NCBI RefSeq assembly: GCF_000018865.1
Contig: NC_010175.1
Span: 4,960,001 to 5,024,000 of the forward strand
Direction: 5' to 3'
From: Chloroflexus aurantiacus J-10-fl
GTDB taxonomy: Bacteria; Chloroflexota; Chloroflexia; Chloroflexales; Chloroflexaceae
DNA length: 64,000 nt
Below are positions 25,829-32,686 of the stretch, in pieces. The translations under genes were made by a program, and so were the position numbers. The first letter of the stretch is position 1. Each line of letters begins with the position of its first letter. Below the pieces are notes generated by a model, which worked only from the letters and a program-made list of their open reading frames with translations, had not been told where the DNA came from and made no database searches.

Positions 25829-25884
25829 GTTTCGGTGTAGAGTATACATGATCAGCAATGAACTGTCAATGCGAGGAGGCAGGT

Positions 25885-26775
25885 GTGCAACGATTAAAGC
25901 GAGTTGTCGGTTGGATCGGTGCTGTGCTGGGGATCGGGCTGCTGGCGTTGATCGTGAGTATTCCGGTGGATGCGTTGATTGGGGGTGGACGGGTAGAGGC
26001 GCTGACGAATACCATCATCCCTGGTCCTGACGGTCCGATTCGGGCTTTTGTGGCCGAACCATCGACACCCGGCCCCCATCCGGCGGTGATTATGATCCAC
26101 GAGTGGTGGGGACTACGCCCGGATATTATCGAGAAGGCAACGGCATTGGCTGCCGACGGCTATCTGGTCGTTGCACCTGATACATTCCGTGGTGCCAGTA
26201 CCACCTGGATTCCGCGCGCAATTTACCAGGTGACAACCACACCACCAGAACAGGTGATGGCCGATCTTGATGCAGTGTTTGCCTGGTTGAGCGCACGGCC
26301 TGATGTGATCGCCGACCGGATTGCCGTGATCGGGTTTTGTTATGGGGGCCGGACTTCACTGCTCTACACATTGCACAACCCGGCGATTGCAGCTACGGGC
26401 GTCTTTTATGGGATGGCAGATGTCGAACCGGTAGCACTGCGTCAGATCCAAGGCCCAGTCCTCGGTATTTTTGGTGGCGCCGATGCTTCTATTCCGCTCA
26501 GTGAAGTGGCACAGCTTGAAGAAAATCTACGCGCTGCCGGTGTGTCCACCCGCTTTGTGATCTTTCCCGATCAGCCGCATGCGTTTGTGGGTGGTATCGA
26601 GTCGATTACTACGGGGGGCGCAGCAGGTGAGGCGTGGCAGGTGCTGCGCTCGTTTCTGGCTGAAGCGCTGCTCAATCGCCCACCAACAAGTCTTCCGGCA
26701 CCATCTGGTACACTTGCAACGCAGCGGATAACCTTCTTCGGTGACATCCATCGTCGTTTTGTGTGTGGATGGTGA
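25885..26775 (+). CDS. dienelactone-hydrolase-family protein, membrane-anchored or exported
   Basis: 296 residues from GTG 25885, which follows GAGGAGG at 5 nt; the ATG at 25858 lacks a ribosome site and overlaps the spacer after the tRNA. An N-terminal helix (WIGAVLGIGLLALIVSIPVD) suggests export or anchoring. The alpha/beta-hydrolase part: HPAVIMIHEWWGLRPDI (oxyanion region), IGFCYGGRTS with a Cys nucleophile as in dienelactone hydrolase, FGGADASIPL with the acid, and FPDQPHAFVGG with the catalytic His. Such enzymes hydrolyse lactones and esters; the substrate is not predictable. The last 30 residues (after about 265) are Pro-rich and may be an extension. Next gene downstream has its own promoter. 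Confidence 0.85.
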   Translation: MQRLKRVVGWIGAVLGIGLLALIVSIPVDALIGGGRVEALTNTIIPGPDGPIRAFVAEPSTPGPHPAVIMIHEWWGLRPDIIEKATALAADGYLVVAPDTFRGASTTWIPRAIYQVTTTPPEQVMADLDAVFAWLSARPDVIADRIAVIGFCYGGRTSLLYTLHNPAIAATGVFYGMADVEPVALRQIQGPVLGIFGGADASIPLSEVAQLEENLRAAGVSTRFVIFPDQPHAFVGGIESITTGGAAGEAWQVLRSFLAEALLNRPPTSLPAPSGTLATQRITFFGDIHRRFVCGW

Positions 26776-26796: not shown

Positions 26797-26825
26797 TTGA
26801 CGAATCGCGCGGCGAGCAGTACAAT
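26797..26825 (+). promoter_or_regulatory. strong promoter for the TrmB-ATPase gene
   Basis: TTGACG at 26797-26802, 17-nt spacer, TACAAT at 26820-26825; ten of twelve consensus positions. Transcription would begin near 26831, inside the inverted repeat described next. Confidence 0.75.
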
Positions 26826-26827
26826 GT

Positions 26828-26851
26828 TAGTAGTTCGGAAATGAACAACTA
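26828..26851 (+). promoter_or_regulatory. inverted-repeat operator candidate overlapping +1 and the start codon
   Basis: TAGTAGTTC, spacer GGAAAT, GAACAACTA: 9-bp arms with one mismatch. It starts 3 nt after the -10 box and ends on the first base of the ATG. The position suits self-repression by the encoded TrmB domain. Confidence 0.55.
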
Positions 26852-29595
26852 TGGAGAACACAAATCTACTGGAACAACTGACGGCGCTGGGGCTTACTGA
26901 GTACGAGGCACGGGTGTACCTGGCATTGTTGACCGAGTATCCGGCGACTGGTTATCAGATCAGTAAACTGGCGGGTATTCCACGGTCAATGGTCTATGAG
27001 GCGTTAGGGCGGTTGGAAGGACGTGGTGCTGTGCTCAAATCGGTTGAAGAAAAGGCAACGCTCTACCGTCCGATTTCACCGGCAATCCTGCTCGACCGCT
27101 ACGAGCGCGAGGCGCGTGAACGGGCTGAAGCACTGCGCACGCAATTGATGCCACTGTTTCACCACGAAGAGAGTGATCGGCTCTGGAACTTCAGTGGTCG
27201 GCGTGAAGCGCTGGCCGCAGCGCGTGATCTGATCGAGAGCGCTCAGCACGAGTTGATGCTGGTACTGACCGATGCCGATGTGGAAGCGCTGTATCCGGCA
27301 TTGGCCGCTGCCCACGAGCGTGGGGTGGCGTTGGGAGTGATTCTGACCGGTGAAGCGCCCTTTTCGTTTGGGCAGGTTGTGCGCCACCCGAAGCGAGAGA
27401 CCGAGCTGCACGGGATGGTTGAGACGCTGATCGTGGTCGCCGATGAGCGTGAATTCTTGATCGCTTCCGGTCATCTTGCCACGACCGCCACGGTGACGAC
27501 TAACCGCAATATGGTCTTGATTGCGCGCCAGTTTATCTGGATGGAGCTGTTCGCCCAACGTATTTTTGCCCGTCTTGGCGAAGATTTGCTGGCCCGCGCC
27601 TCGATCCAGAAGATCGCCAGGTTTTGCACTCGTAATCAATGCCCGGCCCGCCAGTGGAGAGGAGCTATACAAATGATTACGACTTCGCGGGTTACTCCTC
27701 GACGGCTGTTTACCCAATTCTTCCAGGATGAAACCCTGGAACCGGCATTTGTGGTGTTGACGCTGGTTGGGATTGTTGCCGGTATCTGGCTGGAGGGTGC
27801 GCAGGCACCGGCTGGCCTCATTCTGGCGGTTCATGTTGCCACCTACTTTTTCGGCGGCTTTTACGCGGTGCGCGCCATTATTGAGGCGCTCAAAGAATGG
27901 AAAATTGAAGTTGATCTGCTGATGGTGCTGGCTGCATTGGGGGCGGCTTACCTCGGCGAATTCAGTGAGGGCGCCATTCTCCTTTTTCTCTTTTCGCTGA
28001 GCAATGTGTTGCAGGTGTATGCTATGCGGCGCACCGAGCAGGCGATTACGGCGCTGATGCAGCTCCGGCCCGACCGGGTCAGTATCCGTCGGCACGACCG
28101 CGAGTACGATGTTGCCATCGAAGAGGTGCAGGTTGGCGATGTGATGCTGCTGCGCCCCGGTGACCGGGTGCCGCTCGACGGGGTGATCGAGCGTGGTGCG
28201 GGTACGTTCGATGAGTCGGCGCTCACCGGTGAGTCGATGCCGGTACACAAGGGGCCGGGCATGACGGTGTTGGCCGGTACGCTCAATCAGACCGGTGCGC
28301 TTGAGGTGCGGGTGACAAAACCGGCCAGTGAGAGCACGCTGGCCCGGATTATCGCTATGGTGAGCGAGGCGCAGTCGCGCAAGGCACGCTCGCAGAGCTT
28401 CCTGGAACGCTTCGAGCAGCGCTACGCGATTGGGGTGATTGGGGCGGTTGCGCTGTTCATTCTGCTGATGCCACTGTTCAGCGGCGCGTCGTTCACCGAC
28501 ATATTCTATCGCGGAATGGTGCTGTTAACCGTCGCGTCGCCATGTGCCCTGGTGATCAGTGTGCCGGCGGCATTGTTGAGCGCGATTGCGGCCGGTGCCC
28601 GGCGGGGCGTCCTCTTCAAGGGTGGCGTGCATCTCGAAGAGTTGAGTCGGGTACGGGTGATTGCCTTTGACAAGACCGGCACGCTGACCTTTGGCAAGCC
28701 GGTGCTGACCGATCTCGTGCCGATGAACGGCTTGAGCGAACATGAACTGCTCACGATTGTCGCCCGTGCCGAACAGCCGTCAGAGCATCCGATTGCGCGG
28801 GCCATTTTGCAGGCGGCTGAAGAGCGTGGGATTGCGATTGTTCCTCCAGAGCAGTTTGTCGCAGTGACCGGGATGGGTGTGCGTGCGCTCTGGGATGGGG
28901 GAGAGACGCTGGTTGGTTCGCCACGGCTCTTCCGCGAAGCCGGGATTGAGGTACCCGCGAACTTGCTGGCGCAGGCTGATGATCTGATGAAACAGGGGCG
29001 GGGGAGTGTCCTGTTTGTATGGCGCGATCAGCAGTGGTTGGGGCTGGTAGCGGTGATGGATCGCGAACGGCCTGACGCAGCCCGGCAGATTGCCGCTTTG
29101 CGCGCAGTCGGTATTGAGCGGATCGTGATGCTGACCGGTGACAACCCGCAGGTGGCTGAAGCAATGGCCCAGCGCTTGGGGATTGATGAGGTGTACGCCG
29201 GGCTATTGCCGGCTGACAAATTGCAGCGTGTCGAGCAGCTCCGACAGCGCTACGGTGGGGTGGCGATGGTCGGCGATGGCGTGAATGATGCACCGGCGCT
29301 GGCAGCAGCAACGGTAGGCATCGCCATGGGAGCGGCCGGTACCGATGCGGCACTCGAAACTGCTGATCTGGTCTTGATGAGCGACGATCTGAGTGCTATC
29401 GTCTACGCTCTGCGGTTAAGCCGCCAGACGCAGCGTGTTGTCTGGCAGAATATCGTATTTGCGCTGGCGGTGGTCGTGGTGCTGGTGCTGACGACATTGA
29501 CTGTGGGGGTGCCACTGCCGTTGGGTGTGGTTGGTCACGAGGGAAGTACGATTATTGTGGTGTTGAATGGATTGCGGTTGTTGATCTTCCGCTAG
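26851..29595 (+). CDS. TrmB-type regulator fused in frame to a P1B-4 metal-transport ATPase
   Basis: 914 residues. Residues 1-70 form a winged helix (LTEYEARVYLALL, GIPRSMVYEALGRLEGRG); 100-250 are the TrmB-type effector region. From residue 275 (ATG 27673, with its own GAGAGGAG ribosome site) comes a complete heavy-metal P-type ATPase: TGES actuator motif, SPC (Cys565) in the transport helix, DKTGT with Asp607 phosphorylated, SEHPIA, GDGVND hinge, and HEGST near the C terminus (His896). SPC plus HEGxT marks the P1B-4 group, which exports Fe2+, Co2+ or Zn2+; no N-terminal metal-binding domain. The join looks accidental: dropping one CG from CGCG at 27595-27598 would end TrmB with RLDPEDRQVLHS and a TAA at 27633. 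Two proteins may be made by internal initiation at 27673. Confidence 0.88.
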   Translation: MENTNLLEQLTALGLTEYEARVYLALLTEYPATGYQISKLAGIPRSMVYEALGRLEGRGAVLKSVEEKATLYRPISPAILLDRYEREARERAEALRTQLMPLFHHEESDRLWNFSGRREALAAARDLIESAQHELMLVLTDADVEALYPALAAAHERGVALGVILTGEAPFSFGQVVRHPKRETELHGMVETLIVVADEREFLIASGHLATTATVTTNRNMVLIARQFIWMELFAQRIFARLGEDLLARASIQKIARFCTRNQCPARQWRGAIQMITTSRVTPRRLFTQFFQDETLEPAFVVLTLVGIVAGIWLEGAQAPAGLILAVHVATYFFGGFYAVRAIIEALKEWKIEVDLLMVLAALGAAYLGEFSEGAILLFLFSLSNVLQVYAMRRTEQAITALMQLRPDRVSIRRHDREYDVAIEEVQVGDVMLLRPGDRVPLDGVIERGAGTFDESALTGESMPVHKGPGMTVLAGTLNQTGALEVRVTKPASESTLARIIAMVSEAQSRKARSQSFLERFEQRYAIGVIGAVALFILLMPLFSGASFTDIFYRGMVLLTVASPCALVISVPAALLSAIAAGARRGVLFKGGVHLEELSRVRVIAFDKTGTLTFGKPVLTDLVPMNGLSEHELLTIVARAEQPSEHPIARAILQAAEERGIAIVPPEQFVAVTGMGVRALWDGGETLVGSPRLFREAGIEVPANLLAQADDLMKQGRGSVLFVWRDQQWLGLVAVMDRERPDAARQIAALRAVGIERIVMLTGDNPQVAEAMAQRLGIDEVYAGLLPADKLQRVEQLRQRYGGVAMVGDGVNDAPALAAATVGIAMGAAGTDAALETADLVLMSDDLSAIVYALRLSRQTQRVVWQNIVFALAVVVVLVLTTLTVGVPLPLGVVGHEGSTIIVVLNGLRLLIFR
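27661..27675 (+). promoter_or_regulatory. internal ribosome-binding site and start for the ATPase half
   Basis: GAGAGGAG at about 27657-27664 followed by CTATACAA and ATG 27673. Spacing and strength fit a genuine translation start, so the ATPase can be made as a separate 640-residue protein whatever happens at the fusion point. Confidence 0.65.
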
Positions 29596-29787: not shown

Positions 29788-30147
29788 GGGGCGGGTTCTG
29801 TAGGGGCGGGTTCTGTAGGGGCGGATTTCTATAGGGGCGGGTTTCTATAGGGGCGGGTTTCTATAGGGGCGGGTTTCTATAGGGGCGGGTTTCTATAGGG
29901 GCGGGTTTCTATAGGGGCGGGTTTCTATAGGGGCGGGTTTCTATAGGGGCGGGTTTCTATAGGGGCGGGTTTCTATAGGGGCGGGTTTCTATAGGGGCGG
30001 GTTTCTATAGGGGCGGGTTTCTATAGGGGCGGGTTTCTATAGGGGCGGGTTTCTATAGGGGCGGGTTTCTATAGGGGCGGGTTTCTATAGGGGCGGGTTT
30101 CTATAGGGGCGGGTTTCTATAGGGGCGGGTTCAAAACCCGCCCCTAC
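29788..30147. repeat. 16-bp G-rich minisatellite, 18 exact copies
   Basis: Two 15-bp units GGGGCGGGTTCTGTA (29788-29817), one variant GGGGCGGATTTCTATA (29818-29833), then 18 identical copies of GGGGCGGGTTTCTATA (29834-30121), ending in GGGGCGGGTT-CAA-AACCCGCCCC and TAC. The ends match the array at 3698-3793. Perfect identity of 18 units implies recent expansion. Confidence 0.92.
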
Positions 30148-30220
30148 AGGCGGTGTATGGGCCTGATCCGCGCTCAGGTCACCACCATCATCTACCATCT
30201 GCACCTCAATATAACAGGTG

Positions 30221-30229
30221 TGCTACAAT
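30221..30229 (+). promoter_or_regulatory. extended -10 promoter for the penicillin-acylase-family gene
   Basis: TGCTACAAT, the same extended -10 as at 6455-6463, about 43 nt before the start codon; weak -35. Confidence 0.5.
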
Positions 30230-30271
30230 ACGCACCACATTCAGAGATCGCGAACATACAGAGAGGCAACA

Positions 30272-32686
30272 ATGCGGTTGCAACGACGCTTCATCGGCTG
30301 GATAGCGCTACTGGTACTGGTTGTCGTGGTGCTTGGTGGGAGCGGTGGTTATCTCTGGCTAAGCCGCTCGCTCCCGCAAATCAGTGGTGACATACGAGTA
30401 CGCGGGATCAGTGGGCCGGTCACGATTGTGCGGGATCGCGATGGCGTTGCCCACATTACCGGCACAACCGATGCCGATGCCGTCTTTGGGCTGGGATTCG
30501 TGCATGCGCAGGAACGGCTCTGGCAGATGGAGGTACAACGGCGCATCGGGCATGCCCGTCTGTCGGAAATCTTCGGCGCAACCACCCTGCAAACCGATAA
30601 GTTTCTGCGCACCCTCGGCGTCGCCCGCGCCGCCCGGAGTGCGCTCGAACGTCTCGACAGCGAGACGCTGGCGTGGTTAGAGGCGTATGCCGCCGGGGTT
30701 AATGCGTTCCTGGCTACGAATCCGGTCTTGCCGCCGGAATTTTTGATCCTGGGCGTGCAACCTGAGCCGTGGCAGCCTATCGATTCGCTGGTATGGGCCA
30801 AGATGATGGCCTGGGACCTCGGTGGCAACTGGAGCAATGAATTGATGCGGGCAACGCTGATCGCAAAGATCGGGCCTGAAGATGCCGCTTTTCTGATGCC
30901 GCCATATACCGCTGATGGCCCGCTCATTATGCCCGCCGCCGGGGTTGTCTCACCAGCGACGGCTGCCGATACACCTCACACGCCTCTTAAGCCGGAAACA
31001 ACCCGTCGCATGCTTGATCTCGCTCAGGAGCTTCAGTTTCTCAATCGCATCGGCGACCAGTTGGCCGGTTCCAATAACTGGGTCATCGGCGGGAGCCGAA
31101 CGGCCAGCGGCAAACCATTACTGGTGAATGATCCGCATCTCGCCAACCGCATACCCTCGATCTGGTACCTGGCCCACATCCAGGGGTCAACCATCAACGT
31201 CATCGGCGCGACCTTTCCCGGTCTGCCGGTAGTGGTGATCGGGCATAACGGACGGATTGCATGGGGGGTGACGAACACCGGCCCGGACGTGCAGGATTTG
31301 TACATCGAGCGGATTGACGCTCGAAATTACGCCGAGTACAACGGCAGGCGTGAACCGGTCACGCTGATCAGCGAAGTCATCACTGTTAAAGACTCTGAGC
31401 CGGTGACACTCACGGTGCGGATTACCCGCCATGGCCCGGTGATCAGTGATGTGCTGGAAGATGTAGACGAGCCGCTGGCCTTTCGCTGGACGGCCCTCGA
31501 CCCTGAAGATACAACCTTACGCGGATTTATCAATCTCAACCGTGCCCGCAACTGGCAAGAGTTTGTGGCGGCCCTCAGCGACTACAAGGCGCCGATGCAG
31601 AGCTTTGTGTACGCCGATGTTGAGGGGAATATTGGTTTTTACGCGCCGGGGCTGGTTCCGATCCGGCGGAACGGTGATGGTAGCGTGCCAGTACCGGGTT
31701 GGACGGATGAGTACGAGTGGATCGGCTACGTCCCATTTGCTGAACTGCCGCACATTTACAATCCACCGCAGGATTACATTGTGACTGCCAACAACCAGGT
31801 GGTGGGTGACGACTATCCCTATCTGCTGGGGACATCGTGGGCAGCGCCGTACCGTGCCCGGCGGATCATCGAGTTGATCGAGCAGAAATCGGCGCTGACG
31901 GTTGCCGATATGCGCACGATGCTCGGCGATGTGGTATCGCTGCATGCGCGTGAATTGTTGCCGATACTACGCGAGGTGACCCCGAACGGGCCGCGTGAAG
32001 CTGCGGCCCTGGAGTTGTTACGCAGTTGGGATGGCACGATGGCCGGTGACAGTGCGGCGGCAGCAGTATTTCAGGGGTATTACCATGCCCTGCTCGAAGC
32101 GGTCTTTGCCGACGAACTGGGCGAGTTCTTCAGCGAGACGTATCGCCATCGGCGCGATTTTGCAGCCATGGCGCTGCGTCGGGTATTGCTGGAAGGCCGG
32201 CAAGAGTGGTGCGATAACGTCAATACCATCGCGACAACCGAGGATTGCGCCACAATCCTTGCCACTGCGTTCAGCAAAGGGTTAGCGGCGATGGCGACGG
32301 CACAGGGTGAAGAAGATCCAACTCGCTGGCGCTGGGATCGAGTTCATCAGGCTGTCTTCCCCCACAACCCGTTCAGTCAGGTCGGAGCGCTGCGCGGCAT
32401 CTTCGAGCGGCGGGTACCTACCGGCGGTGATAGTTTCACCGTCAATTTTGCGCCCATGCGGCTGAACGAAGGATACTTGCAATACAATGCACCATCGTAC
32501 CGCCAGATTATCGATTTCGCCGATCTGGCGGAGTCGCGCTTCATCCACACAACCGGCCAGTCCGGTAACGTGCTGAGTAATCGTTACAGCGATTATCTGG
32601 CGCTGTGGCAACAGACTGGCGACATACCAATGCGCTTCAGCGGCACGATTGACGGCGAGCGATTGGTGTTGCAACCGGATCGGTAA
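30272..32686 (+). CDS. penicillin-acylase-family N-terminal-nucleophile hydrolase
   Basis: 804 residues from ATG 30272, after GAGAGG at 6 nt. The family hydrolyses amides such as beta-lactams or acyl-homoserine lactones; the enzyme is exported and self-cleaved into alpha and beta chains. Residues 8-30 are a signal or anchor helix. Alpha chain: VRDRDGVAHITGTTDADAVF and GLGFVHAQERLWQMEVQRR. Cleavage should fall before Ser267 in QLAGSNNWVIGG, which becomes the N-terminal nucleophile of the beta chain; the NDPHL motif and IGHNGRIAWGVTN support this. No frame problems, usual length. Acyl-homoserine-lactone quenching is possible but cannot be separated from other acylase roles by sequence. Stands alone between two repeat regions. 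Confidence 0.92.
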   Translation: MRLQRRFIGWIALLVLVVVVLGGSGGYLWLSRSLPQISGDIRVRGISGPVTIVRDRDGVAHITGTTDADAVFGLGFVHAQERLWQMEVQRRIGHARLSEIFGATTLQTDKFLRTLGVARAARSALERLDSETLAWLEAYAAGVNAFLATNPVLPPEFLILGVQPEPWQPIDSLVWAKMMAWDLGGNWSNELMRATLIAKIGPEDAAFLMPPYTADGPLIMPAAGVVSPATAADTPHTPLKPETTRRMLDLAQELQFLNRIGDQLAGSNNWVIGGSRTASGKPLLVNDPHLANRIPSIWYLAHIQGSTINVIGATFPGLPVVVIGHNGRIAWGVTNTGPDVQDLYIERIDARNYAEYNGRREPVTLISEVITVKDSEPVTLTVRITRHGPVISDVLEDVDEPLAFRWTALDPEDTTLRGFINLNRARNWQEFVAALSDYKAPMQSFVYADVEGNIGFYAPGLVPIRRNGDGSVPVPGWTDEYEWIGYVPFAELPHIYNPPQDYIVTANNQVVGDDYPYLLGTSWAAPYRARRIIELIEQKSALTVADMRTMLGDVVSLHARELLPILREVTPNGPREAAALELLRSWDGTMAGDSAAAAVFQGYYHALLEAVFADELGEFFSETYRHRRDFAAMALRRVLLEGRQEWCDNVNTIATTEDCATILATAFSKGLAAMATAQGEEDPTRWRWDRVHQAVFPHNPFSQVGALRGIFERRVPTGGDSFTVNFAPMRLNEGYLQYNAPSYRQIIDFADLAESRFIHTTGQSGNVLSNRYSDYLALWQQTGDIPMRFSGTIDGERLVLQPDR

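Follow-up and report, generated by a model that had tools for sequence, protein, structure and literature searches.

The joined TrmB regulator and P1B-4 metal ATPase frame of Chloroflexus aurantiacus J-10-fl very probably reflects a frame slip confined to one record of a conserved two-gene operon

In the genome record of Chloroflexus aurantiacus J-10-fl a TrmB-type transcriptional regulator and a P1B-4 type metal ATPase are read as one protein, which raises the question of whether the locus encodes a membrane-tethered regulator or two genes joined by a slip of the reading frame. The DNA analysed, referred to here as the window, comprised positions 4,960,001–5,024,000 (64,000 bases) of a genome of 5,258,541 bases assembled as one contig. 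The frame at 26851–29595 on the forward strand is open over 914 codons from ATG to TAG, as described in a preliminary description of the locus, and both of its parts were recognised when the 914-residue translation was compared with Pfam. The regulator matched TrmB (PF01978) at residues 10–77 with an E-value of 9e-20 (70.7 bits against a cut-off of 25.6) and Regulator_TrmB (PF11495) at residues 111–212 with an E-value of 5e-8 (32.9 bits against a cut-off of 22.2), the latter match covering only positions 2–107 of the 233 in the model. The pump matched E1-E2_ATPase at residues 405–585 and the HAD hydrolase family at residues 601–820. A dienelactone hydrolase family protein (PF01738) is encoded just 5' of the operon at 25858–26775. 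On the other side, between the pump gene and a gene for an 822-residue penicillin amidase family protein (30218–32686; PF01804, E 2e-243), lies an array of 21.6 copies of the 16-base G-rich unit GGGGCGGGTTTCTATA (29788–30131, 98% matching).

Alignment of the locus from eight Chloroflexus genomes revealed a single length difference within TrmB, at 27595–27596, where two bases are present in this record and a gap is found in all seven congeners; the gain of a dinucleotide is therefore real relative to the congeners. The two bases form the surplus CG of the sequence CGCG at 27595–27598 and shift the frame, in agreement with the earlier proposal that a 2-bp slip at this position caused the join. 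The regulator portion that precedes the shift (26851–27597, residues 1–249 of the joined frame) is 93–95% identical to its congener counterparts. Read in the alternate frame from 27597, the DNA encodes RLDPEDRQVLHS followed by a TAA stop codon at 27633–27635. The TrmB frames of the congeners end with this same peptide, identical in six and with D for E in one, followed by TAA or TAG, and in all seven the pump is a separate gene. The congener TrmB has 260 residues from its ATG, so the protein-like ending and the normal length of about 260 residues that had been proposed for the alternate frame are both borne out.

The old tail and its stop codon (27597–27635) are still undamaged in the window, two bases out of frame. 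Over these 39 bases there were 44 differences from the seven congeners, distributed 3/0/41 over codon positions one, two and three in the old frame, a sum over congeners in which inherited changes are counted more than once. The concentration of 41 of the 44 differences at third positions indicates that, before the CG appeared, the tail was evolving as part of the TrmB coding sequence, and the extra CG is thus either very recent, or an error and absent from the organism. Comparison of TrmB with the seven congeners gave dN/dS values of 0.016–0.027, indicating that the regulator is under strong purifying constraint.

Comparison of the locus in relatives had been set beforehand as the test that could tell against the fusion, and a single CG and a TrmB stop codon were found in 7/7 congeners, which leaves a conserved membrane-tethered regulator-pump fusion unsupported. 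The same separation was observed more widely. No joined TrmB and ATPase frame was found at any of 43 loci carrying a relative of this TrmB; the TrmB frame ended at a stop codon in 42 of them and ran off the contig in one. The ATPase lay downstream on the same strand at 30 loci, on the other strand at four and elsewhere at one, with none within the DNA covered at the remaining eight. A scan of 158 genomes of the class, with up to five candidates scored per genome, gave seven matches spanning the query among the matches listed, six of them interrupted by one or two stop codons and only this record without any. A scan of 400 genomes of the phylum, with two candidates scored per genome and an E-value limit of 1e-150, listed five full-length matches, and again only this record was free of stops. 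The 400-genome set overlaps the 158-genome set and the two collections share assemblies, so the counts are not additive, and a distant fusion could appear in either scan as separate pieces. That no further fusion was found is a firm result within the genus and at the 43 loci, and a weaker one beyond them.

Several long pump frames were considered as possible fusions and rejected. The open frames of 940–994 residues in four genomes (G003, G017, G024 and G030), and those of 958 residues in G051 and 935 residues in G061, were each found from their DNA to have TrmB and the pump in separate frames. The locus in G061 (L115, minus strand) has an unusual layout of its own, with the 935-residue pump frame open across the whole TrmB gene and TrmB encoded in another, overlapping frame. 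None of 11 distant pumps with frames of 871–1030 residues matched the TrmB profile, which did detect the positive control, L071. The search for further TrmB-P1B fusions that the preliminary description had suggested thus produced none in the seven congeners, the 43 loci or the 11 distant long-frame pumps, and a gene uniting the DNA-binding and membrane parts is not conserved in the lineage.

Other sources were also searched for the joined gene. No plasmid record matched 27450–27750, and among the literature matches listed no title or abstract opening concerned a TrmB-P1B fusion or the operator described below. The accessible main text of a C. aurantiacus proteome study (PMC9316378) mentions neither the ATPase nor TrmB. 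A survey using 43 queries with a match of at least 55% identity to frames of relatives revealed no other frame slip in the 13,081 of 64,000 window bases covered, by a method that is also blind to the CGCG slip with its 13-codon tail.

The pump, read from its own ATG at 27673 to 29595, is a protein of 640 residues in which the motifs SPC, HEG(ST), DKTG, TGE and GDGVND are all present, the first two as TVASPCALV and GHEGST; SPC and HEG were also found in the pumps of all seven congeners. In the accessible text of PMC8880997 the P1B-4 class is defined by the membrane-helix motifs SPC and HEGxT and by a missing classical N-terminal heavy-metal-binding domain. Both motifs occur here and the Pfam scan of the 914-residue frame detected no such domain, which places the pump in P1B-4 as first described. 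The best subfamily model was the heavy-metal model TIGR01525 (E 1e-186) and the top-scoring solved chain was 7qbz, which we take to be sCoaT.

The pump has kept the ribosome site and start codon ascribed to it in the preliminary description. The 37-base spacer between the old TrmB stop and the pump (27636–27672) contains GGAGAGGAG, which ends 8 bases 5' of the ATG. A purine-rich GAGAGGAG or GAAGAGGAG precedes the pump in 7/7 congeners, nearly abutting the script-chosen ATG in G003. The spacer is 37 bases in six of the seven congeners and, depending on the start chosen, 105 or 111 bases in G003, the only congener with about 74 extra bases between TrmB and the pump (L059). In 4/7 congeners an open pump frame already extends upstream past the slip point, so a gain of two bases could easily join the genes by chance and the open join is not in itself remarkable.

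These observations make it very probable that the fusion is a frame slip confined to a single record, either a very recent mutation of the strain or a sequencing error, in a conserved two-gene regulator-pump operon. The choice between error and real mutation is about even, and the CGCG rests on one genome record of the species. A sequencing or assembly error, which would mean that the strain truly has one CG and that its TrmB and pump genes are separate, like those of the relatives, stands close to an even chance. It would account for the lack of the second CG in all seven congeners, for the undamaged tail with its third-position differences and for the strong purifying constraint on TrmB, and the site is GC-rich, making miscounts plausible. 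A clean 2-bp duplication is, however, a less usual sequencing error than a single-base one. The quality of the record also weighs against a simple error, since the genome paper, in its accessible text (PMC3150298), gives 11-fold coverage, Phred/Phrap assembly and, for the finished sequence, fewer than 1 error in 100,000, a rate that still leaves room for as many as about 50 errors genome-wide.

A real and recent 2-bp duplication specific to this strain, either neutral or slightly harmful and possibly fixed in culture, with the operon making both a fusion and a free pump, has slightly less than an even chance of being correct. Replication slippage is expected to turn CG into CGCG, and the pump keeps its own start. 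In a structural model of the congener TrmB from C. islandicus (mean pLDDT 86.5) the long last helix spans residues 219–249 and is followed by a short helix of low confidence at 252–259; because the frame shifts just past the long helix, the rest of the TrmB fold could outlast the loss of the conserved tail. The duplication was seen in no other species examined, however, and the tail it removes is conserved among relatives, so that its loss would probably not be harmless. It is very improbable that the joined gene acts as a membrane-tethered one-component metal sensor, with the DNA-binding domain held at the membrane, repression coupled to the state of the pump and no free regulator left. The frame is open and the candidate operator intact, and the N-termini of P-type ATPases are cytosolic, which would make the geometry possible, but the arrangement is absent from every other genome examined, and the lack of decay in the old frame leaves no time for selection to have acted on a new linker.

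Should the extra CG of this single-record slip be real, the regulator would exist only as a fusion with its last 12 residues or so replaced, and since every copy of TrmB would be joined to a pump, no free TrmB would be made. A free pump could still be produced, because its ribosome site and ATG are kept. Of the earlier suggestion that the gene may yield both a fusion and a free pump, the pump's own start holds up, and a conserved fusion is unsupported, the relatives having separate genes.

Upstream of the regulator, a sigma-70-like promoter, TTGACG-17-TACAAT, was identified at 26797–26825 on the forward strand from consensus matching only (10/12 positions), with one match compared to a mean of 0.2 in shuffled sequence. 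Between this promoter and the TrmB ATG lies a 22-bp inverted repeat, AGTAGTTCGGAAATGAACAACT (26829–26850), a candidate operator that touches the start codon. At up to two mismatches the chance expectation for such a site in the window was 0.03 matches. The exact pattern AGTAGTTY-N6-RAACWACT occurs once in each of the eight Chloroflexus genomes. Among 31 genomes there were 15 exact sites in 14 genomes, each of them immediately 5' of TrmB or the pump; the reversed pattern, used as a control, matched once. The remaining 17 of the 31 lack the exact site, among them every one of the 12 that belong to other families of the order. Most of 29 listed relatives have this pattern or a similar one before TrmB. 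Some of these upstream regions had been used to define the pattern, which makes its occurrence in them partly circular. The circularity does not extend to its uniqueness over whole genomes or to the single match of the reversed control. At two mismatches the pattern matched 8 further places in its own genome, for a total of 12 matches compared with 28 for the reversed pattern, and no wider regulon is claimed.

Motif-based extraction of TrmB had lost 19 of 48 loci, and the operator was recounted at 45 loci in which TrmB was located by tblastn. A site with up to two mismatches was found somewhere in the locus in 34 of the 45. Three of the 11 siteless loci (L086, L112 and L113) have no DNA upstream of TrmB, while eight (L087, L094, L095, L098, L100, L101, L105 and L106) do. 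The sites in L103 and L107 each have two mismatches. In L111, where the pump does not lie downstream of TrmB, the site precedes the pump; in G015 it lies between the divergent regulator and pump, beside the pump; and in G018, with the two genes on separate contigs, there is one site for each.

The locus can be read as a two-gene metal-efflux operon in which a TrmB-family regulator of 260 residues is followed, after 37 bases, by the P1B-4 ATPase. The TrmB dimer would occupy the inverted repeat that separates the promoter from the start codon, repressing both its own operon and the pump, and excess metal would release the dimer so that the pump is made. In the present record the duplicated CG at 27595–27598 shifts the end of the regulator out of frame, and the frame runs on across the spacer to join that of the pump. 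The conservation of the repeat and the location of all exact sites beside TrmB or the pump suggest a TrmB-family regulator of a metal pump. No conserved cysteine was present among 24 aligned regulators, and one histidine, H179, was invariant among them and is a candidate metal ligand on the basis of this alignment.

The fusion, seen in one record only, need not be considered a conserved architecture, and the database entry should be treated as two genes until the site is resequenced. A TrmB-family regulator beside a P1B-4 pump was found in many members of the Chloroflexales, as well as in a few genomes that carry the label Anaerolinea. What remains useful is this pairing with a sharply conserved 22-bp repeat, a testable candidate for a metal-sensing switch, each Chloroflexus genome having a single exact site.

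When compared with known systems, the pump resembles the P1B-4 type ATPases CoaT, CzcP and PfeT in its SPC and HEGxT motifs, its lack of a Pfam N-terminal metal-binding domain and its length of 640 residues, and differs, in this record only, in the TrmB that a frame slip attaches to its N-terminus. The regulator shares the PF01978 winged helix with the TrmB family (TrmB, TrmBL1 and TrmBL2), which is known mainly for the control of sugar metabolism in archaea; it matches part of PF11495, and its profile matched the solved structures 3qph and 5bqt. It differs in being short, at 260 residues, and in being paired with a metal pump, and it scored far below the cut-offs of the NCBIfam sugar-regulator models (for example 66 against 600 bits). 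The arrangement as a whole is similar to operons of a regulator and a metal-efflux pump such as CoaR-CoaT, where the regulator adjoins the pump and an inverted repeat lies at the promoter. It differs in that the regulator is of the TrmB type rather than of the MerR, ArsR or CopY type, and the repeat has the form AGTAGTTY-N6-RAACTACT.
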